From an uncultured Anaeroplasmataceae bacterium (GTDB lineage Bacteria; Bacillota_I; Bacilli_A; Acholeplasmatales; Anaeroplasmataceae): DNA of 64,000 bases. Shown here one piece after another: positions 11,344 to 36,484 of the stretch; within the stretch, counting starts at the first letter, position 1, and each line of letters starts with the position of its first letter. A program made the position numbers and the translations under genes. The stretch lies in contig CATKXV010000005.1 in assembly GCA_949840955.1 (NCBI GenBank), positions 62,001 through 126,000 of the forward strand, read 5' to 3'. The notes beneath the pieces were generated by a model. That model was not told the origin of the DNA and did no database searches. It saw only the letters and a list, made by a program, of their open reading frames with translations.

Positions 11344-14300
11344 TTAGGCAAATGCAAATAATCCAATAGCCTCCTCTGGATCCTCCTCTGGTAAATTACC
11401 AAAGGAATGCATTGTATCAAAAAGCTCATAAAGACTAGAGCTTAGCCTTGTTCTGCTTTGAACATCCTTTTTAGAGGTAAATATCTTCTCCATACGCTTA
11501 TTTACAATATCCACAGCAATACTTTCCCCTAAGGAATCTACCGCTGAAAAAGGAATTCGTAATGCCCCGTTTTCAACCTCAAATACAGTAGCAGAGGATT
11601 TAAGAATATCTACAGGAAGAAATTTGATTCCTCTTACTGCCATTTCTAATGCAACCTGTAATGCCGTCAGCTTATCATCATCTGTAGCTGTACGATCTGG
11701 TTTATTCTGAATTTCCTCCATAGCTGCCTTAATAGCCATCTTTCCACCTAAATAAGCCTGAATTACATGACCCTTGGCTCTTTTTGAAAACCAGGCACTA
11801 TAAAATAATGCTGGAGCATTGACCTTAAACCAGGCAATACGTAAGGCCATAAGGACATAGGCTGTTGCATGGGCCTTCGGAAACATATATTTGATACGCT
11901 CACAGGACCAAATATACCATGCAGGAACATGCTTCTCAAGCATTTCTCCCTTATATTTTGCCCAGGTCTGTGGATCCTTAGAAACCTTACCCTTACGGAC
12001 AAATTCCATAATCTGGAAGGCTGAGGAAGGATTTAATCCGAAGCGCATTAAATCTACCATGATATCATCACGGCATCCAATGATATCCTTAAAATCAATT
12101 TTACCAAATTCAGTAGTGCCTGCAACCAAATCCTGAGCATTGGTATTCCAAACATCAGTACCATGGGAAAGACCAGATATTTTTACCAATTGGGCAAAGG
12201 TCTTAGGAAGGGTTTCTACAAGCATTTGACGGACAAAGTTCGTCCCAAACTCAGGAACAGCAAAGGAAGCTACCTTACTTCCAATTTCCTCCTCCCTCAC
12301 ACCAATAATCTCGGTTTCAGAAAACAACCGATATATATTTTTATCATCAATTGGAATATCTCTTGGATCAGAAAATGGAAAATCCTCCTGATGCTGATGA
12401 ACATAATCCATAAAATATTTAATTAAGGTTGGATCATCGTGTCCGAGTACATCAAGCTTTAACAAATTGTTTTCAAAGGAATGGTAATCATAGTGTGTCG
12501 TTCTCCAGCTATTATCTGCATTATCTGCTGGATACTGAACAGGGGTCACATCATAGATATCTACATAATGTGGAACTACAACAATTCCCCCTGGATGCTG
12601 TCCTGTAGAACGCTTAATTCCAACCAGATAAGAGGCAAGACGATCCATTTCGCAGGAGCGTAAATTTAAATTTTTTCTTTCACAATAGCCCTTCACATAG
12701 CCATAGGCATTCTTCTCTGCAATTGTACCTACTGTACCGGCACGGAAGGCATTTTCTTTACCAAATACCTCACGAATATATTCATGAGCCTGTGCCTGAT
12801 ACTCTCCTGAGAAATTCAAATCAATATCAGGTACCTTATCTCCATGGAAGCCTAAAAAGGTTTCAAAAGGAATATCATGACCATCCTTTGATAATGGCTC
12901 ACCACAGATCGGACATACAGCATCCGGTAAATCATAGCCTGAATCAATCCCTATAAACAAAGGCTGGAAAGGCTTTTCTACATCCGTAAGACCAAATTCA
13001 GCCAATTCATCATCACTCATCTTAAAGGTATGAAATTTACATTTCTTACAGCGATAGTGCGGAGAAAGTGGATTGATTTCCGTAATTTGCATCATCGTTG
13101 CAACCAAGGATGAGCCTACAGATCCACGGGAGCCTACCAGATATCCATCACTTAAGGACTTTTCAACCATCAAATGAGATATATAGTAAACTGAGGCATA
13201 GCCATTGGAAATAATAGAGTTCAATTCTCTATCAATTCTTTTTTGCACAATTTTATGAGGATTATCCCCATAAAGCTTCGTCATATTCTCCTTAACGATA
13301 CGCTTAACCTCCTCTGTAATAGAGGGAACATGAAGGAAGGTATCCTTAAACTCATCATCTCTTGGAGCAAACATATCCTTTTTAAATGCTGGAAATTTCT
13401 CAATTTCATCTGCAACCTTATTGGTATTTTCAACAACAATTTCATAGGCCAAATCAGAATGTAAGAACTCAAATTCTTCTAGCATTTCTTCTGTTGTACG
13501 CAAATGCATATCTGGTGTTGATGCATAATTTGCAAGGGGATGCTGACCTCCACCAACTTGTGGTGATGCAATCATAATGTCACGATATTTCTTAATATTC
13601 GGACGAAGATAATGACAGTCAGAGGTTGCAACCACTCTTTTTCCCTTTTTCTTTGCAGCTTCGATTATTTTTAGAATAATTTCTTTTACACGCTCTTCCC
13701 CATTTGGCATATCATCAAACAACTGACGATAGGCCGTTGGTGGCTGAACCTCAATATAATCATAATACTCTATTTCTTCTTCTAGTTCTTCTAAACTTCG
13801 ATTTAAGGCTAGCTCAAAAACCTCGCCATTGACACAGGAGGAACCAATTAATATTCCATCACGATGTGCTTCAATAACAGATTTTAATGCCTTTGGACTA
13901 CCACTTAAATGATAGGTTAGGGCATCTGAAATGATCTTATACATATTTTTATATCCAACTGGATTCTTTGCCAAAATCGTTATATGCGTTGGAATCAAAT
14001 GACGCCAATGCTCCTTTGGATCAATCAGTGTATTGATATCCTTATAATTATAAATATTTCTTTTAAACAGATCACTCAGCATCTGAATAAAGCACAATGC
14101 TGTAACTCTGGTATCATCTGTTGCCCTGTGATGCTGTTCCTGTTTTACCTTGAAAAACTTGGATAATGATTTTAAATTAAAGGTTTTAACCTCACTACCA
14201 TAGCCTGCACGGAAAAGATTCAAGGTATCAATCACAGGAAGCATATCATACTTTAGGTTATGCTTTTTTATATCCTTATAAATCATACCCACATCAAACT

Positions 14301-15801
14301 TGGCATTATGAGCAACCAATATGGTATCTTTACAAAAATCCATAAATTTGGGTAGAATTTCTTCAATGCTTAAAGCATCCTGAACCATTTCATCCGTGAT
14401 GTGTGTAATCCCCGTAATTTTCTCAGGAATAGGACATCCTGGATTTACAAACACCTCAAAGGTATCAATAATGCCCCCTTGGTATACCTTGTGAGCAGCA
14501 ATTTCAATAATTTCATCATAGGTTTGGGATAAGCCTGTTGTTTCTATATCAAATACAACATAGGTGGCATCCTTTAGAGGAATATCTCTTTCATCTAGCG
14601 TTATAAAATACTTATCATCGTTAATATAATTTAGCTCTACGCCATAGATGGGCTTGAAATCTGGATATTTTTCAATAGCATGGGCTATATCAGGTACACT
14701 ATAGATTCCATTATGGTCAGTAAAGGCCATCGCTTTCCAATCCCAGGAAATCGCTGTTTTAACATAATCCGTTGCCTCTGTGAGTCCATCCATATTGCTC
14801 ATTTTCGTATGGCAATGCAGCTCAACACGTTTTACAGGAGCCGTATCTACAACCTTTTGTTCCTCTTTTTTCCCAAGATACTCTACAGTGGTTGCTGTTA
14901 AAACAACCTGCTTAGCAAAGGTATCATACTCTGCCTTTCCAGTAATTTTTAGTCTAGAGCCAACAACCATATCTCGTTCATATAACTCTTTTTCTGAATC
15001 CGTTCGCAGCCATTTTTTCACTAAAATGGAATCAGTTTCATCCGTAACCTTAATGGTAGCCAGGGAAGATTTTGTTTTAGGAAAGCTTCTTACCTCTATA
15101 CCAAAAATATAGGCATCAATTACGAATACCGCTGGGCCATTTACATTTTGATATACGGAAATATCGTTTTGAGTGTTTGGAATATCCTGTATGAGTGAAA
15201 GCTCTGTAGGCTTTTGTGTCTTAACATACTTTTTTTCTTTTTGGATTTGTTCATTTATTTTTTGAACAGCCTCAGCTTCCTTTTTCTGTTGCTCTAGGGT
15301 ATCCTCAATTTCCTTTTGTAAGGCATCTAATTCTGCCTGAACACTTTCATTTTCATCTCGAATAAAGCCTACCTGAACCTCTAATCCATACTGTTTAAAA
15401 TAGCTTTCTAACGGTTCTAATAAATCCTCAATTCCAGCAGCATCCTTAGGGATTCTAAACATAAATTGATTTTGATGGATTTGGCAATCCTTTGCAGATA
15501 AGCTTTGAAACCGGGCAGATTGTAAAGAAAGATTTTCTAAAGCATCCTCTAAATACGCTCTATACTCCTCCTCTGAAAGCTTATGATTTGCATATTCTAG
15601 ATAAATTAGGCATTGTAAATCCAAAGCTTCAATTGCTTTTCTCACACAAGAGATTAAGGCATTGTAATTGTCTAATACTAAGGCATCCTCTATAGCGATA
15701 TAAACCTCAGCTCTTTTGCTTTTTTTGTGATATTTAATTTTTTCTATTGAAAATTCACAAGGAATGAAGTTTTCTTGCTTAATGATTTCTTCTAATTTCA
15801 T
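11344..15801 (-). CDS. polC: DNA polymerase III PolC-type (Gram-positive replicative polymerase)
   Basis: 1485 residues from the ATG at 15801, chosen because GGAGGGG lies at the right distance; the ATG 12 bases earlier has none. Order of parts: N-terminal domain and OB fold (about 220-310), PHP domain start (VELHCHTKMSNMDG), an inserted DnaQ-like proofreading exonuclease (YVVFDIETTGL near 420, HNAKFD, HHRATDDTR), the rest of PHP, zinc-binding cysteines (CKKCKF and CPICGEP), the polymerase core (PDIDLNFSG carries catalytic aspartates), and the fingers and duplex-binding domains. It extends leading and lagging strands during replication. Length is usual for PolC. It follows a DUF1189 gene by 17 bases, likely one operon. 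Confidence 0.97.
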   Translation of the reverse strand: MKLEEIIKQENFIPCEFSIEKIKYHKKSKRAEVYIAIEDALVLDNYNALISCVRKAIEALDLQCLIYLEYANHKLSEEEYRAYLEDALENLSLQSARFQSLSAKDCQIHQNQFMFRIPKDAAGIEDLLEPLESYFKQYGLEVQVGFIRDENESVQAELDALQKEIEDTLEQQKKEAEAVQKINEQIQKEKKYVKTQKPTELSLIQDIPNTQNDISVYQNVNGPAVFVIDAYIFGIEVRSFPKTKSSLATIKVTDETDSILVKKWLRTDSEKELYERDMVVGSRLKITGKAEYDTFAKQVVLTATTVEYLGKKEEQKVVDTAPVKRVELHCHTKMSNMDGLTEATDYVKTAISWDWKAMAFTDHNGIYSVPDIAHAIEKYPDFKPIYGVELNYINDDKYFITLDERDIPLKDATYVVFDIETTGLSQTYDEIIEIAAHKVYQGGIIDTFEVFVNPGCPIPEKITGITHITDEMVQDALSIEEILPKFMDFCKDTILVAHNAKFDVGMIYKDIKKHNLKYDMLPVIDTLNLFRAGYGSEVKTFNLKSLSKFFKVKQEQHHRATDDTRVTALCFIQMLSDLFKRNIYNYKDINTLIDPKEHWRHLIPTHITILAKNPVGYKNMYKIISDALTYHLSGSPKALKSVIEAHRDGILIGSSCVNGEVFELALNRSLEELEEEIEYYDYIEVQPPTAYRQLFDDMPNGEERVKEIILKIIEAAKKKGKRVVATSDCHYLRPNIKKYRDIMIASPQVGGGQHPLANYASTPDMHLRTTEEMLEEFEFLHSDLAYEIVVENTNKVADEIEKFPAFKKDMFAPRDDEFKDTFLHVPSITEEVKRIVKENMTKLYGDNPHKIVQKRIDRELNSIISNGYASVYYISHLMVEKSLSDGYLVGSRGSVGSSLVATMMQITEINPLSPHYRCKKCKFHTFKMSDDELAEFGLTDVEKPFQPLFIGIDSGYDLPDAVCPICGEPLSKDGHDIPFETFLGFHGDKVPDIDLNFSGEYQAQAHEYIREVFGKENAFRAGTVGTIAEKNAYGYVKGYCERKNLNLRSCEMDRLASYLVGIKRSTGQHPGGIVVVPHYVDIYDVTPVQYPADNADNSWRTTHYDYHSFENNLLKLDVLGHDDPTLIKYFMDYVHQHQEDFPFSDPRDIPIDDKNIYRLFSETEIIGVREEEIGSKVASFAVPEFGTNFVRQMLVETLPKTFAQLVKISGLSHGTDVWNTNAQDLVAGTTEFGKIDFKDIIGCRDDIMVDLMRFGLNPSSAFQIMEFVRKGKVSKDPQTWAKYKGEMLEKHVPAWYIWSCERIKYMFPKAHATAYVLMALRIAWFKVNAPALFYSAWFSKRAKGHVIQAYLGGKMAIKAAMEEIQNKPDRTATDDDKLTALQVALEMAVRGIKFLPVDILKSSATVFEVENGALRIPFSAVDSLGESIAVDIVNKRMEKIFTSKKDVQSRTRLSSSLYELFDTMHSFGNLPEEDPEEAIGLFAFA

Positions 15802-15818
15802 ATACCCCTCCAAAAAGA

Positions 15819-16610
15819 CTATCTTCTTATAACGACCTTTATAATATGACGGAATGTAATCAGTGCATATACTAATGGTAATGCTAAAGCAAAATATACG
15901 ATAATACTTACATTAAATAGGTAGGAAAAAAATGATCCAACCAAAAATACACAGCCATCGTAAAAGCTCAATTTTGCACGCACCCTTCTATCAATCGTAG
16001 GATTGATGGAAATGGATAAGATGTAACAGAAAAATACACAAATAATATAATAAACAAATGTCATTAAGGCTCCTCTTACAAAAGTAGATGCCTGGAAATA
16101 TACCTTAGAGGAATCTAGGATTTGATCTATAAAGCCTCTAAAATTATATGTGTCCGAAGGAGAGTTCATTGCCACAGCCCCTAAATGAAATCCACCCATA
16201 CGAATGTCCTTATAGGCGATCTTAGAAACCTTTGTAATGCCATAATAAATGTAGGCTTCTTCTTCCTTAAGCACTATATTTATAGAATCTCTTCCTACAG
16301 ATATTTTTTCCTCAGTAGGAAGTATAATCAGCTTAAATCCACTACCATCTACAAGAATAGATTCTCCTGTAAGCTTATTTTCCTTAGCATCATAAACCAC
16401 TGTATTATCCCCATGCTGTATAATTGCAGAGGTTACAGCAAGAGAGGAGTATTCATCAAAAGGATTCTCAGTAAAGCAACGCACTGCTTGAACCGATATG
16501 GCTAGGACAAAGAAAAGAACAATAGTCAATATTACTATTCCAGCTTTATCTTTATGATATTTTCCGATACTTCTCGGATGACATATACAATCCTTTATTC
16601 TTTCAATCAT
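15819..16610 (-). CDS. DUF1189 family membrane protein
   Basis: 263 residues. A membrane segment at about 24-44 is followed by a polar domain of about 130 residues and then three or four hydrophobic segments (about 180-260). The layout and the N-terminal DCICHPRSIGKYHKDK stretch suit the DUF1189 family of Bacilli and Clostridia, whose function is unknown. It sits directly upstream of polC on the same strand with a 17-base gap. The GCGAGG site before the ATG supports the start. Confidence 0.65.
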   Translation of the reverse strand: MIERIKDCICHPRSIGKYHKDKAGIVILTIVLFFVLAISVQAVRCFTENPFDEYSSLAVTSAIIQHGDNTVVYDAKENKLTGESILVDGSGFKLIILPTEEKISVGRDSINIVLKEEEAYIYYGITKVSKIAYKDIRMGGFHLGAVAMNSPSDTYNFRGFIDQILDSSKVYFQASTFVRGALMTFVYYIICVFFCYILSISINPTIDRRVRAKLSFYDGCVFLVGSFFSYLFNVSIIVYFALALPLVYALITFRHIIKVVIRR

Positions 16611-16704
16611 AATTAAAACCTCGCATTATTTTTATTATACCAAAAAACAACAATTATTACCACTTAAGATTAAAAATTTGTTATAATATTTATAGGTGAG
16701 AAAA

Positions 16705-17643
16705 ATGACGGAAGAAAAGCACTATAATACCTTAACCGAATACTATAAAAATAAATATCATGCCAAGGTAGCAAAAATAGCCTTAAACGCTAATTTCACT
16801 TGTCCTAATCGGGATGGAACGAAGGGAACTGGAGGCTGTAGCTATTGCTCCAGGCTGGGTAGTGGAGATACTGGAGGAAATCCTCTCCATTCTATAAAAG
16901 AGCAATATAAAGAAATTAAAGAAAAGCTTACAAGCAAGTGGCCTGATGCATTATTTATTCCTTATTTGCAGGCCTACTCGAATACCTATGCTCCTCTTCA
17001 TACCTTAAAAAGGCTCTATGAGGAAATTATCACCTTAGATCCAAAAATCGTAGGTCTTGCTATCGCAACAAGACCCGATTGCTTTACAGAGGAGATCTAT
17101 GACTATTTATATGAATTCAATCAAAAAATCCCAATCACGATAGAGCTTGGACTACAAACCTCAAACGAGGAAACTGCAAGCAGGATCAATCGTTGCTGCT
17201 CTAATGAGGAATTCATCTGCTGTGTCAAAAATTTAAGAAAAAGACAAATTGAGGTTGTTGTACATATCATGAATGGCTTACCTAATGAGACCCAAAAGGA
17301 TATGCTGAATACGATTGATTTTCTGAACTCCTTAGATATACAGGGCATAAAATTTCACAGTCTTCTTCTTTTAAGGGATACCTTGCTTTATGAAGAGTAT
17401 CAGGAAAACCCCTTCCCGATTCTTTCTTTAGAGGAATATACACAAATTGTGGTAAAGCAGATTGCCAGGCTTAAGTCTAGTATCATCATCCATAGGCTGG
17501 CAGCTGATGGAATAAATGAGGATGTTCTTTTGCCAAAATGGCCAATGAAAAAGCTTGTCGTAATGAATGAAATCGACAAGCTTATGCGTAAATTAAATTT
17601 GTATCAGGGTGATGATTTTAAAGAATCCACCCATCATCACTGA
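16705..17643 (+). CDS. YhcC-type radical SAM protein (TIGR01212 family)
   Basis: 312 residues from the ATG at 16705, preceded by AGGTGAG; the GTG at 16696 lies inside that site. The N-terminus HYNTLTEYYKNKY is followed by the radical SAM motif CPNRDGTKGTGGCSYC (Cys at positions of a CxxxxxxxxxxxCxxC pattern), then SNTYAP, GLAIATRPDC and ELGLQTSN, all typical of this YhcC/TIGR01212 group. It binds a [4Fe-4S] cluster and S-adenosylmethionine. The substrate is unknown to me. The gene converges on the LeuRS-like gene with a 26-base overlap of their ends (17618-17643). Confidence 0.88.
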   Translation: MTEEKHYNTLTEYYKNKYHAKVAKIALNANFTCPNRDGTKGTGGCSYCSRLGSGDTGGNPLHSIKEQYKEIKEKLTSKWPDALFIPYLQAYSNTYAPLHTLKRLYEEIITLDPKIVGLAIATRPDCFTEEIYDYLYEFNQKIPITIELGLQTSNEETASRINRCCSNEEFICCVKNLRKRQIEVVVHIMNGLPNETQKDMLNTIDFLNSLDIQGIKFHSLLLLRDTLLYEEYQENPFPILSLEEYTQIVVKQIARLKSSIIIHRLAADGINEDVLLPKWPMKKLVVMNEIDKLMRKLNLYQGDDFKESTHHH

Positions 17644-19627
17644 TAAGGTACTTCCCCTTATAGATTGACTGATAAATATCTTCTGCTAAAAAAGGACAAA
17701 CCGGATATAAAAGCTTTAAATAGAGCAAGCCATGCTTTGCAGTGATGCTATTTTGCCATAAATGCTCCTTGAAAAATGCAATCAACAAAGTTGTATACTG
17801 GCATATATTTTTATCCTGTAAGGCCAGAAGAACACACTCGGTTAGGGTTTGAAAGGAATCCTCTAGCGCATCCTCCTTTACAAAGGGCTTCATATAAAGC
17901 TCTTCTATACTTTTTCTTAAATTTTTGATGCTTGCTAGTTCAGTTTCACTATAAATGAAATCCTGATTGAATGGCTTGCTAAAAAAATACATGCGCATGG
18001 CATCTCCAGAATATTTATCCAATTCCTTTGAAAAATCAAGTAAATTATTATTTGTCTTAGATAGCTTATGATAGTCTTCATCATATACAGGATGGAGTAA
18101 AATTAAATGGTGAAAAAGAGGGGGCAATATGACCCTTTTTTCTTTTTCAATAAAGCATTTAATACATAAAGGAACAAAAACATTCTCATATAATTCATCC
18201 TTAGAAATGGTAAAAAGCTCTATCCCCTTCCACATTTGAAAGCTTCTTATGGCATCCTCAGAGAATATAGAGGTACTTTCTCCAACATTGTCATAAAGTA
18301 TAGCTAAAAAGGGTAATATCCCTGTAGAAAATATATGATTCATACTTCCAGATATCATATTCCCAGGTACATCGATATCTTCGGATAATACAGGTCTAAA
18401 TTTGTTAGATAAAACAAAGGGAAGATACCTTTTTAAGGAGTACAGCTGATCCTCATGATCCACAAAAAAGGGAAGTAAGGCTCCCAGGGAGTCTAAGGAG
18501 GATAAAAGGATTTTATCCTTACTATAATATGATTTAGGCACGGCAATATCTGCCTTTACAAATTGTTCAATAATCAGTTTTCTTCCTTCAGCTAGAGGTA
18601 TCCCATTTAAAAAATCACTTTCAATAAAAACACCATTTTGAACGACATCAATGATAGGTAGCCCTTCCTCCTGAGCCGTAATTCTATCCTTGGGATTTAA
18701 ATAAGGATTCGCAAAATATATCGGACAGTCCTCATTTACACTTAAAAAAATAGGTATTTTTTTTCCTGTCAAAGGATTAATTGCATAGTTTCCTGTAAAT
18801 ACTCCAAAGTCATTGGTATTATCCTCGGATAAATACAATTCTATGGCTGAATATTCCTCATATAAAGTATAGTCTTCAAAATTGATATAATCCGGATGAA
18901 GTAAAATGAAAGAAATTCCACCAATATATTCTGGTTCCTTAAAATTAAACGTCAATTTCGCTCCGTTTGTTGTTGTAAAGCTAATATCTAGACTTTCCTT
19001 TACCTCAAGCATTCCGATGAGTTCTTTTTTTACTTCTTCCTCTGTATTTAATTCTTGAATGCTTTTTAAAATGTCCTCTGTAATCTCTTTTATATCAAAA
19101 TAAAAGCCCTGAATCCGATTTGGATAAAGTGTCTTTTTATAAAAATAGCTGTCTAAAATTTTTTTACCTGCTTTATCCTGATATACATCGATTTGCCCGT
19201 AACGAATAAATTGCCGTTCATAAAATTCTATAAAAGCAAGCTGTAGGGATTCTAAAAAATCCTCATGCTTTAAATCAATTTTCTTCTCCTCATCAATTCC
19301 AATCCCCAAATGAAGCATCTGCTCTTCAAAAACAGAGGATATATCATCATTAATTGTACTGCTTAGTCTTTTATTTTCTAAATAAGAGGTTAATCCCAAA
19401 GAATCAAACCCAAGAGGAAATAAAACGTTATTTCCTATCATTCTTAAATATCTAGAAAAAAAGTCTCCAATCAGTATAGGACGGACATTTCCATCCTGAA
19501 AGCCATATAAATTGGTTTTAGGAAAGCTTGAAAACAGATAGGATTTTGGTTTAATCCGATCCTTTTCCACTCTAAAGTTTTTACTTTTTTTCCATTCGTT
19601 AATCCAGTATTCCCTATCCTTTTTCAA
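17618..19627 (-). CDS. Degenerate leucyl-tRNA synthetase paralogue lacking the HIGH motif
   Basis: 669 residues from a TTG at 19627, chosen because AGGAGGTG ends seven to eight bases before it; the GTG at 19636 overlaps that site. The whole length follows class I LeuRS: IGDFFSRYLRMIGNNVLFPLG matches the segment after HIGH, but the HxGH itself reads QDGN. The editing domain retains GVFTGNYAINPLTGKKIPI, yet the conserved AHDERD region reads YLNPKD. KMSKS is kept as KLSKT. The GGSEHAVGH segment before it is not recognisable. The C-terminal domain of about 70 residues seen in the real LeuRS at 34076 is absent. ATP-dependent aminoacylation is therefore unlikely. The gene lies directly behind acpP, but a terminator separates them. 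It could be a regulator, RNA-binding protein or carrier-protein partner; all are inference. Confidence 0.8.
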   Translation of the reverse strand: MKKDREYWINEWKKSKNFRVEKDRIKPKSYLFSSFPKTNLYGFQDGNVRPILIGDFFSRYLRMIGNNVLFPLGFDSLGLTSYLENKRLSSTINDDISSVFEEQMLHLGIGIDEEKKIDLKHEDFLESLQLAFIEFYERQFIRYGQIDVYQDKAGKKILDSYFYKKTLYPNRIQGFYFDIKEITEDILKSIQELNTEEEVKKELIGMLEVKESLDISFTTTNGAKLTFNFKEPEYIGGISFILLHPDYINFEDYTLYEEYSAIELYLSEDNTNDFGVFTGNYAINPLTGKKIPIFLSVNEDCPIYFANPYLNPKDRITAQEEGLPIIDVVQNGVFIESDFLNGIPLAEGRKLIIEQFVKADIAVPKSYYSKDKILLSSLDSLGALLPFFVDHEDQLYSLKRYLPFVLSNKFRPVLSEDIDVPGNMISGSMNHIFSTGILPFLAILYDNVGESTSIFSEDAIRSFQMWKGIELFTISKDELYENVFVPLCIKCFIEKEKRVILPPLFHHLILLHPVYDEDYHKLSKTNNNLLDFSKELDKYSGDAMRMYFFSKPFNQDFIYSETELASIKNLRKSIEELYMKPFVKEDALEDSFQTLTECVLLALQDKNICQYTTLLIAFFKEHLWQNSITAKHGLLYLKLLYPVCPFLAEDIYQSIYKGKYLISDDGWIL

Positions 19628-19647
19628 AGCCTTCACCTCCTTTTAGA

Positions 19648-19672
19648 AAAGAAAAAGCTGCAATAAGCAGCT
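19648..19672 (-). terminator. Terminator between acpP and the LeuRS-like gene
   Basis: AGCTGC (loop TTATT) GCAGCT followed by TTTTTCTTTT on the minus strand, six bases after the acpP stop codon. The LeuRS-like gene is thus reached only by read-through or its own start. Confidence 0.85.
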
Positions 19673-19677
19673 GATTC

Positions 19678-19911
19678 TTATTTTTTTAATTCTTCAATGT
19701 AAGAAACTAAGTCTCCTACAGTAGAAATTGCCTCAGCCTTAGTATCATCAATTTCTACTCCGAATTCGTCTTCAATATCCATAACGATTTCTACTGCATC
19801 TAAGCTATCTGCACCTAAATCGTCCTTTAATGATGCCTCTAAAGTAACCTTTGCTGCATCTACCTTTAATTCTTTAACTATGATTTCTTGGATTTTTTCA
19901 AAAATTGACAT
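19678..19911 (-). CDS. acpP: Acyl carrier protein
   Basis: 77 residues, acidic, with the phosphopantetheine attachment site [14 protein letters not shown] (Ser in the DSLD motif near residue 36). It carries growing acyl chains in type II fatty acid synthesis. Length and helix pattern are standard. It has a strong own promoter (TTTACA, 17 bases, TATAAT), a GGAGGG ribosome site and its own terminator, consistent with a highly expressed single gene. Its maturation enzyme AcpS is at 56369. It is unusual that no fatty-acid or phospholipid gene is next to it. Confidence 0.97.
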
Positions 19912-19941: not shown

Positions 19942-19970
19942 ATTATACCATTATAATGACAAATTGTAAA
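19942..19970 (-). promoter_or_regulatory. Promoter of acpP
   Basis: On the minus strand TTTACA (19965-19970), a 17-base spacer ending in TGG, then TATAAT (19942-19947): a strong SigA-type promoter with an extended -10, about 30 bases before the acpP start. Confidence 0.85.
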
Positions 19971-34075: not shown

Positions 34076-36484
34076 TCATTTTATTACTATATTGACTAGC
34101 TTTGATGGAACATAAATTGTTTTCACAATTTCATGTCCTGCCGTAAAGCCTTGAATCTTTTCTAAGGATAGTGCCTGAGCTATGATTTCTTCTTTTGAGC
34201 AATTTACAGAAACCTCCATTTTATCTCGAAGCTTTCCATTCACCTGAACCACCAAAGAAAGCTGCTCAGCAGCAAGCTTAGACTCATCATAGGCTGGCCA
34301 AGCCTCAAAGGTAATTGTTCCTGTATGCCCTAAATCACTCCACAATTCTTCACCAATGTGAGGACAAATTGGATAAAGTAGCTTTACAAAGCTTTCCATA
34401 TATGGACGATAAACAGAATTTGCCTTATAGGCTTCGTTTAAGAAGGTCATCATTTGTGCAATAGCAGTATTAAAATTCAAGCTATCAAAATCAGAGGTTA
34501 CCTTCTTTACAGTTTGATGATATATCTTATCTAATTCATGCGAATTGGTATCGCTGAATTTAGAAGTATATTCTTCTTGATGATAAAATCTCCATACTCG
34601 ATCTAAAAATTTTCGAGCGCCCTCTAGCCCTTTACTGCTCCATGGAAGAGAGGCCTCTAAAGGTCCCATAAACATTTCGTAAAGACGCAAGGTGTCCGCA
34701 CCATATTCCTTTGCAACATCATCCGGATTCACTACATTTCCACGGGATTTACTCATTTTTTCATTATTTTCTCCTAAAATCATCCCCTGATGGAATAGCT
34801 TTTTAAAAGGCTCCTTTACTGGAACGAATCCTTTATCATATAAATAATTCGTCCAAAATCTTGAGTAAAGCAAATGTCCTACAGCATGCTCAGAGCCACC
34901 TAAATATAAATCTACAGGAAGCCAATGCTTCAAAAGCTCATAGTCTGCAAAGGTATCCTCATTTTTAGGATCAATATAACGCATAAAATACCAGCTAGAG
35001 GCAGCAGATCCTGGCATTGTATTGGTTTCTCGAACGCATGGTTTTCCATGGTAAGAGGTATGTACCCAATCATATGCATTTTCAAGTGGTGCTGAACCAC
35101 TTTTCTTTGGCTTATAATTGTCTAATTCTGGTAAAACCAAAGGTAAATCCTTATCCTCTAAGGCTTCACTAGACCCATCCTCATAGAATACTACAGGAAT
35201 TGGCTCTCCCCAATATCTTTGACGAGCAAAAACCCATTCTCTTAAGCGATAAGAAATTTGTTTAGAGCCAATTTTGTTTGTCTCAAGCCAATGAATCATT
35301 TTTTTGATAGCATCCTCTTTATTCAGTCCATTTAAAAAGTCTGAATTTATGTGTAATCCATCCTCAGTATAGGCTTCTTTAGAAACATCACCACCTGCAA
35401 GTACTGGAATAATTTCTAATCCAAACTGCTTTGCAAAGGCATAATCTCTTTCATCATGGGCAGGTACAGCCATAATAGCTCCTGTACCATAGCTAGCTAA
35501 AACATAATCTGAAATCCAAATCGGAACTGGCTTTTGATTTACAGGATTCATGGCATAGGCACCTGTAAATACTCCTGTTTTCTCTTTATTTAGTTCTGTA
35601 CGCTCTAGCTCACTTTTCATACTACATGCCTTTTGGTAAGCTTCTACAGCCTCCTTTTGCTCAGGAGTAGTAATTTGATTCACTAAGGTATGCTCAGGAG
35701 AAAGCACACAATAGGTGCATCCAAATAAAGTATCACAGCGTGTTGTAAACACGATAAAAGAATCATTTGTATTTTGAACCTTAAATTGAACATGAGCACC
35801 AACAGATTTCCCTATCCAGTTTCTTTGCATTTCTTTTGTTGATGCTGGCCAATCCACTGTATCTAAGCCCTCTAACAGCTTTTCGGCATACTTTGGTATA
35901 TCGAGTACCCATTGCTTCATGTTTTTACGAACAACAGGATATCCTCCACGCTCACTTTTTCCATCAATAACCTCATCATTGGCTAAAACTGTTCCTAATT
36001 CCTCGCACCAATTGACTGGCATCTCTATTTGCTTGGCAAGTCCATCCTGATAAAGCTGTTTAAAAATCCACTGTGTCCATTTATAATATTGAGGATCACA
36101 GGTAGATATCTCCTTTGTCCAGTCATATGAAAAGCCTAGCATCTTTAATTGCTTTGTAAAATTAGCAATATTGGCTTTGGTAAATTCCTCTGGATGATGT
36201 CCTGTTGCAATGGCAAATTGCTCTGCGGGTAGTCCAAAGGCATCCCAGCCCATAGGATGAAGAACGTTGTAGCCTTCCATTCTTTTTTTGCGGCATACAA
36301 TATCGGTAGCCGTATAGCCTTCTGGATGACCTACGTGGAGTCCCTGCCCAGAGGGATAAGGAAACATATCCAGGGCATAAAATTTAGGCTTGGAAAAGTC
36401 TCTTGTATTCACCTCAAAGGTTTTATTCTTCTCCCAAAAATCCTGCCATTTTTTTTCTATTTCTATATGATTATACATCTTCAT
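34076..36484 (-). CDS. leuS: Leucyl-tRNA synthetase
   Basis: 802 residues, the normal bacterial length. HIGH-type motif HVGH within [18 protein letters not shown], editing domain with TTRCDTLFG and [28 protein letters not shown], and [14 protein letters not shown]. All catalytic elements missing in the paralogue at 17618 are present, including the C-terminal domain starting [11 protein letters not shown]. It charges tRNA-Leu. The start has AGGAGG about ten bases upstream. It follows two small membrane-protein genes on the same strand. Confidence 0.98.

Follow-up and report, generated by a model that had tools for sequence, protein, structure and literature searches.

Proteins that resemble aminoacyl-tRNA synthetases usually originate from a spare duplicate. 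Several relatives of this kind bear comparison with the protein described here. In the Sulfolobaceae a second LeuRS, LeuRS-I, stands alongside the active enzyme without charging tRNA, and is changed in both CP1 and the C-terminus (PMC9437257), whilst Halobacteria possess a divergent second enzyme, LeuRS2, whose role is uncertain (PMC9437257, PMC3436685). HisZ and SLIMP, relatives of class II synthetases, serve as regulators, and a 2022 review of duplicated synthetases gives no paralogue function for LeuRS in its table (PMC9437257). The protein studied here, which we term pseudo-LeuRS, resembles LeuRS-I in that it is a second LeuRS, predicted not to charge tRNA, which persists alongside an active enzyme and has an altered CP1 and C-terminus, but LeuRS-I is archaeal and of other origin, makes leucyl-adenylate and binds tRNA-Leu (PMC9437257), whereas in pseudo-LeuRS the adenylation site is lost. 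With LeuRS2 it shares divergence and uncertainty of role; LeuRS2 differs, however, in retaining weak charging activity and tRNA affinity (PMC9437257). The likeness to HisZ and SLIMP, a synthetase fold without catalytic residues that is kept by selection, is one of kind only, since those proteins are of class II, descend from other parents and have a known partner and role, whilst any regulatory role is putative here. Bacterial LeuRS (TIGR00396), especially those of the Acholeplasmataceae, share with pseudo-LeuRS a common origin, a genome position and a predicted fold that extends through the anticodon bundle and includes CP1, but pseudo-LeuRS lacks HIGH, the synthetic-site histidines, a conserved KMSKS, the editing threonines and the C-terminal domain, and scores far below the cut-off of that family. 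What is unusual is that, in a family of gut bacteria, a foreign LeuRS has apparently taken the place of the ancestral enzyme, and that it is this ancestral enzyme, rather than a duplicate, which persists as a pseudoenzyme throughout the family; in the open-access literature we found no description of a displaced native LeuRS kept in this way in the Acholeplasmatales.

The pseudo-LeuRS gene (669 codons) occupies 17618..19627 on the minus strand of the window, a stretch of 64,000 nucleotides from an Anaeroplasmataceae genome, and is defined by its open frame, its match to TIGR00396 and its AlphaFold2 model. The TTG at 19627 is assigned as its start because a Shine-Dalgarno sequence, AAGGAGG (19636..19642, minus strand), precedes it and is overlapped by the upstream GTG at 19636. 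The gene is preceded by acpP (19678..19911, minus strand), which encodes the sole PP-binding protein found in the genome, and is followed by three members of the ancestral leuS cluster, namely the convergent radical-SAM gene mnmL/ytqA (16696..17643, plus strand), a gene for a membrane protein (15819..16610, minus strand) and polC (11344..15813, minus strand). The membrane protein has no Pfam match, and its gene adjoins polC in most examined genomes of the order. About 15 kb from pseudo-LeuRS in the same genome lies the gene for an active LeuRS (34076..36484, minus strand; TIGR00396, 1070 bits), in which HIGH, KMSKS and the editing site are all present and which, from its position in the tree, is probably imported.

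This arrangement can be compared directly with that of two other families of the Acholeplasmatales, f3 and f5, where the sole LeuRS found is a complete one. Most genomes examined from these sister families carry, whole or in part, the cluster acpP-leuS-(ytqB)-mnmL-membrane protein-polC around their native, HIGH-bearing enzyme (loci L179, L180, L183, L184, L190, L191 and L193), and the adjacency of acpP and leuS is present even in a phytoplasma. In the window's family pseudo-LeuRS fills the native leuS slot without a change of orientation, and the gene for the active LeuRS lies elsewhere, so that families with an active form at the same locus offer a built-in comparison.

The preliminary description, which was made from the window alone, had taken the protein to be LeuRS-like over nearly its whole length, and alignment with the window's LeuRS bears this out (22% identity across ~650 residues, E 5e-34). 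TIGR00396 is likewise its best NCBIfam match (E 2.6e-31), yet the score of 108.6 bits lies below the curated cut-off of 548.4. The losses described at the HIGH and AHDERD motifs and at the C-terminus are all real in the alignment. The HIGH position (19487..19498, minus strand; residues 44-47) reads QDGN, and among 24 copies of pseudo-LeuRS the first histidine is found in none and the second in one; the C-terminal domain is absent from all complete copies, which end near the conserved W/WP position where that domain would start. The AHDERD position reads YLNPKD in the window, although the last residue of the motif (E. coli D345) is retained in 24/24 copies; its equivalent here, the invariant Asp314 (18686..18688, minus strand), could owe its conservation to helix capping alone. 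Two further statements hold in part. The GGSEHAVGH motif is indeed absent, but the segment has been replaced by unrelated residues rather than deleted; and KLSKT does stand at the KMSKS position of the window copy (18053..18067, minus strand), but is not conserved in the family, where the first lysine is present in 3/24 copies and the second in 6/24, arginine being commoner at the second position (13/24).

Further residues are lost at both active sites. The synthetic-site H533 and H537 are not conserved among the 24 copies compared, and of the editing threonines (window LeuRS numbering) T247 and T252 are found in no copy and T248 in two; H343 is likewise missing throughout (0/24). Only 23 of 180 near-invariant LeuRS columns are retained in at least 80% of the 24 copies. 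Compared with LeuRS, the proteins are also more acidic and have lost some positive charge. Taken together these sequences predict a protein without catalytic activity, in which both adenylation and editing are lost, and formation of leucyl-adenylate is unlikely because the residues for adenylation are lost.

The AlphaFold2 model of pseudo-LeuRS (pLDDT 89.8) nevertheless predicts a LeuRS fold that includes the anticodon bundle and retains CP1. It matches LeuRS structures with Z scores of 34-35, that of Mycoplasma mobile at Z 35.2 and an rmsd of 2.9 over 510 residues; the alignment with other LeuRS covers ~650 residues, but at an rmsd high enough to suggest that a domain has shifted. The CP1 editing-type domain (approximately residues 205-365; 18533..19015, minus strand; pLDDT ~90) is the best conserved part. 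Mean pairwise identity among pseudo-LeuRS is highest in CP1 (0.38), followed by the KMSKS half (0.29) and the anticodon bundle (0.27), whereas the active LeuRS of f3 and f5 show the reverse, their KMSKS half being the most conserved region and CP1 the least. Ten residues are invariant across the pseudo-LeuRS of families f1, f2 and f4, and seven of these lie inside CP1, where stretches such as NPL[T/N] and SDF[L/V][N/D]G are retained. The most decayed copy, that of f4 (L034 2314-3867; 517 aa), combines a badly eroded Rossmann core with an intact CP1, and its model is correspondingly poor in the core and confident in CP1, which can be superposed on a LeuRS editing domain over 155 residues (Z 20.8, rmsd 2.4). 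Selective constraint has moved in pseudo-LeuRS from the synthetic core to CP1.

Strong selection on an enzyme that is predicted to be dead, yet has not left its ancestral site, implies a job other than tRNA charging, and the earlier suggestion of a recruited role for an inactive synthetase relative is reasonable for a protein that is predicted to be dead and is both intact and selected. We consider it probable, at roughly 0.6, that pseudo-LeuRS is the displaced native LeuRS, kept as a non-catalytic protein whose action is to bind a small ligand or another protein, mainly through the CP1 module on the old Rossmann platform. The frame is intact and under purifying selection, catalytic residues and promoter are lost, the gene is the positional orthologue of native leuS and its product is nearest to the native enzyme, and constraint has shifted to CP1; to these observations the retained LeuRS fold is added by prediction, whilst inactivity, expression by read-through and binding via CP1 would follow from them. 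On this account the native gene would be the original leuS of the Acholeplasmatales; the lineage leading to the Anaeroplasmataceae and a related family would have gained a second LeuRS from elsewhere in the Bacilli, which took over the charging of tRNA-Leu; and the native enzyme, at its old locus, would have shed its synthetic site, its editing chemistry, the promoter of its gene and the tRNA-binding domain at its C-terminus, to act through the CP1 that it retained, with the invariant Asp314 and the two conserved stretches as candidate binding elements. Were its partner or ligand found, LeuRS, and CP1 especially, might prove to have a non-catalytic role that essentiality masks elsewhere.

A tentative extension is that the native LeuRS already had a second, non-catalytic job that could not be transferred to the import, and was stripped down to that CP1-centred job; this we regard as possible but doubtful. 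Family f4 has an active LeuRS unlike the f1/f2 type beside its own decayed copy, which hints that displacement has perhaps occurred more than once. Were such a prior job real, the pseudo-LeuRS family would isolate a hidden moonlighting function of bacterial LeuRS.

The same structural model leaves some room for a regulator or trans-acting factor that binds tRNA-Leu, as LeuRS-I and LeuRS2 do without efficient charging (PMC9437257), given that the LeuRS fold is retained with its anticodon bundle. We judge this unlikely. No complete copy has the C-terminal domain, the anticodon bundle and the KMSKS half are the least conserved regions, acidity is higher than in LeuRS, and the editing threonines are lost; binding of tRNA-Leu or of leucyl-adenylate is thus unsupported (tRNA-Leu and leucyl-adenylate analogues had been put forward from the window), the residues of the synthetic site having gone as well. 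A trans-editing factor was also considered and rejected, again for the loss of the editing threonines.

Expression of pseudo-LeuRS appears to be tied to acpP. Between the two genes lies a terminator-like hairpin with a U tract (19646..19672, minus strand), and a hairpin follows acpP in all 25 family spacers examined, the rest of the spacer containing little beyond the ribosome-binding site. An exact TATAAT occurs in 6/6 native acpP-leuS spacers of f3 and f5 versus 0/25 acpP-pseudo-LeuRS spacers, counts that are not independent because the loci are related; in shuffled sequences the hexamer arises at 18% and 8% per spacer, respectively. As judged from these spacers, pseudo-LeuRS has lost the leuS promoter sequence. 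Since its own promoter is lost and that of acpP is well formed (TTTACA-17-TATAAT with extended TG; 19942..19970, minus strand; presumed to serve both genes), transcription that continues through the acpP terminator is the probable route to expression of pseudo-LeuRS. A search with Rfam gave no match to a T-box or other leader RNA in the window or the family loci, the one match being a tRNA in L034. A precedent exists in gluQ-rs, which lies behind dksA and whose expression through a terminator has been shown (PMC3542578); it too is a synthetase relative without its own promoter, read through the terminator of an upstream gene, although GluQ-RS is an active enzyme and read-through in pseudo-LeuRS is a prediction.

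This dependence on the acpP promoter, together with the adjacency of acpP in most loci, might suggest that pseudo-LeuRS acts on the co-encoded acyl carrier protein (ACP), either as a ligase-like enzyme or by binding it. The genome has one ACP, the lone PP-binding gene product, with AcpS and PlsX, and no ketoacyl synthase was found in it, so that the ACP probably works outside ordinary fatty-acid elongation. We nonetheless think a role of this kind improbable. The fully active LeuRS of the sister families is already encoded next to acpP; acpP is not the neighbour of the f2 copies or of two copies in f1 (L031, L043); and the ATP and amino-acid site that a ligase requires is destroyed. The acpP neighbour, whose conservation the preliminary description had proposed to check, is no evidence for such a role because the adjacency is ancestral and older than the loss of catalysis. 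Membership of the amino-acid:carrier-protein ligases, for which a class II core with an intact site is required, was rejected, as the fold found is that of a class I LeuRS with a destroyed site. The acpP adjacency, combined with a LeuRS-like annotation, would accordingly mislead function prediction. PADLOC gave no match that would mark pseudo-LeuRS as a defence gene.

The preliminary description had regarded the protein as a paralogue of the LeuRS at 34076, and a fast-diverged duplicate of the family's active LeuRS would be consistent with the presence of both genes, ~15 kb apart, in one genome. Similarity scores point the other way: all 27 pseudo-LeuRS compared (from f1, f2 and f4) score best against the LeuRS of f5 or f3, with clearly poorer scores against the active enzyme of the family from which each comes. 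Trees likewise place pseudo-LeuRS with the f3/f5 LeuRS on one side, and the active f1/f2 LeuRS with those of all other Bacilli on the other, and a tree restricted to the slower f2 copies groups these with the native f3/f5 LeuRS with support of 99/98. When the long-branched family copies are included, however, a clade that unites pseudo-LeuRS with the active LeuRS of f1 and f2 is not rejected by an AU test (p 0.68). The tree alone consequently does not settle the origin, since this test is neutral, and the argument is carried by synteny, similarity scores and the f2 copies. Pseudo-LeuRS sits in the ancestral leuS cluster with the active gene outside it, and many copies keep at their N-terminus the END.IKPK.Y stretch of native LeuRS. 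Duplication is therefore disfavoured, and we consider it quite improbable; from the cluster position, the 27/27 scores and the placement of the f2 copies, the native leuS would have been displaced by an imported LeuRS and retained in place. The active LeuRS is most likely the newcomer, and pseudo-LeuRS the positional orthologue of the leuS native to the order.

Of the 40 genomes from the window's family with a completeness of 80% or more, 37 carry full-length pseudo-LeuRS, and in the other three (G016, G032 and G133) it was not found; nearly all of the family's genomes are draft MAGs. A single-protein query of the genome contigs gave no match, whilst an alignment query recovered the relatives. 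All frames are open in the 37 genomes, which span several genera, and that of G131, for which a stop had been reported, is intact over 665 codons; conservation in relatives, proposed earlier as a check, is thus found without decay. The closest pair has a dN/dS of 0.048 at dS 0.28 and further close pairs give 0.07-0.10 (Nei-Gojobori). These ratios, 0.05-0.10 among close pairs, indicate strong purifying selection on the 669-codon frame, for which selection had been claimed earlier. The missing catalytic motifs, C-terminal domain and promoter, and the absence from three family genomes, might indicate a functionless relic in decay, but this is very hard to reconcile with these ratios or with the want of any broken frame across 37 genomes, and we discount it.

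Among 55 genomes of the window's family, 52 yielded a true LeuRS. Two genomes, G130 (99% complete) and G035 (95%), carry pseudo-LeuRS and gave no LeuRS match at 1e-40, for which an assembly gap is the most likely cause. L040, from a family member of genus g7 without detectable pseudo-LeuRS (G016), has a LeuRS of another type, which groups with the G038 enzyme and may represent a second import. The f2 copies, L033 2535-4646 (703 aa) and the contig-cut L036 2485-4332, are less decayed and are also without HIGH and KMSKS, and that in L033 lies a few genes away from mnmL; the two provide the best material with which to date the displacement of LeuRS.
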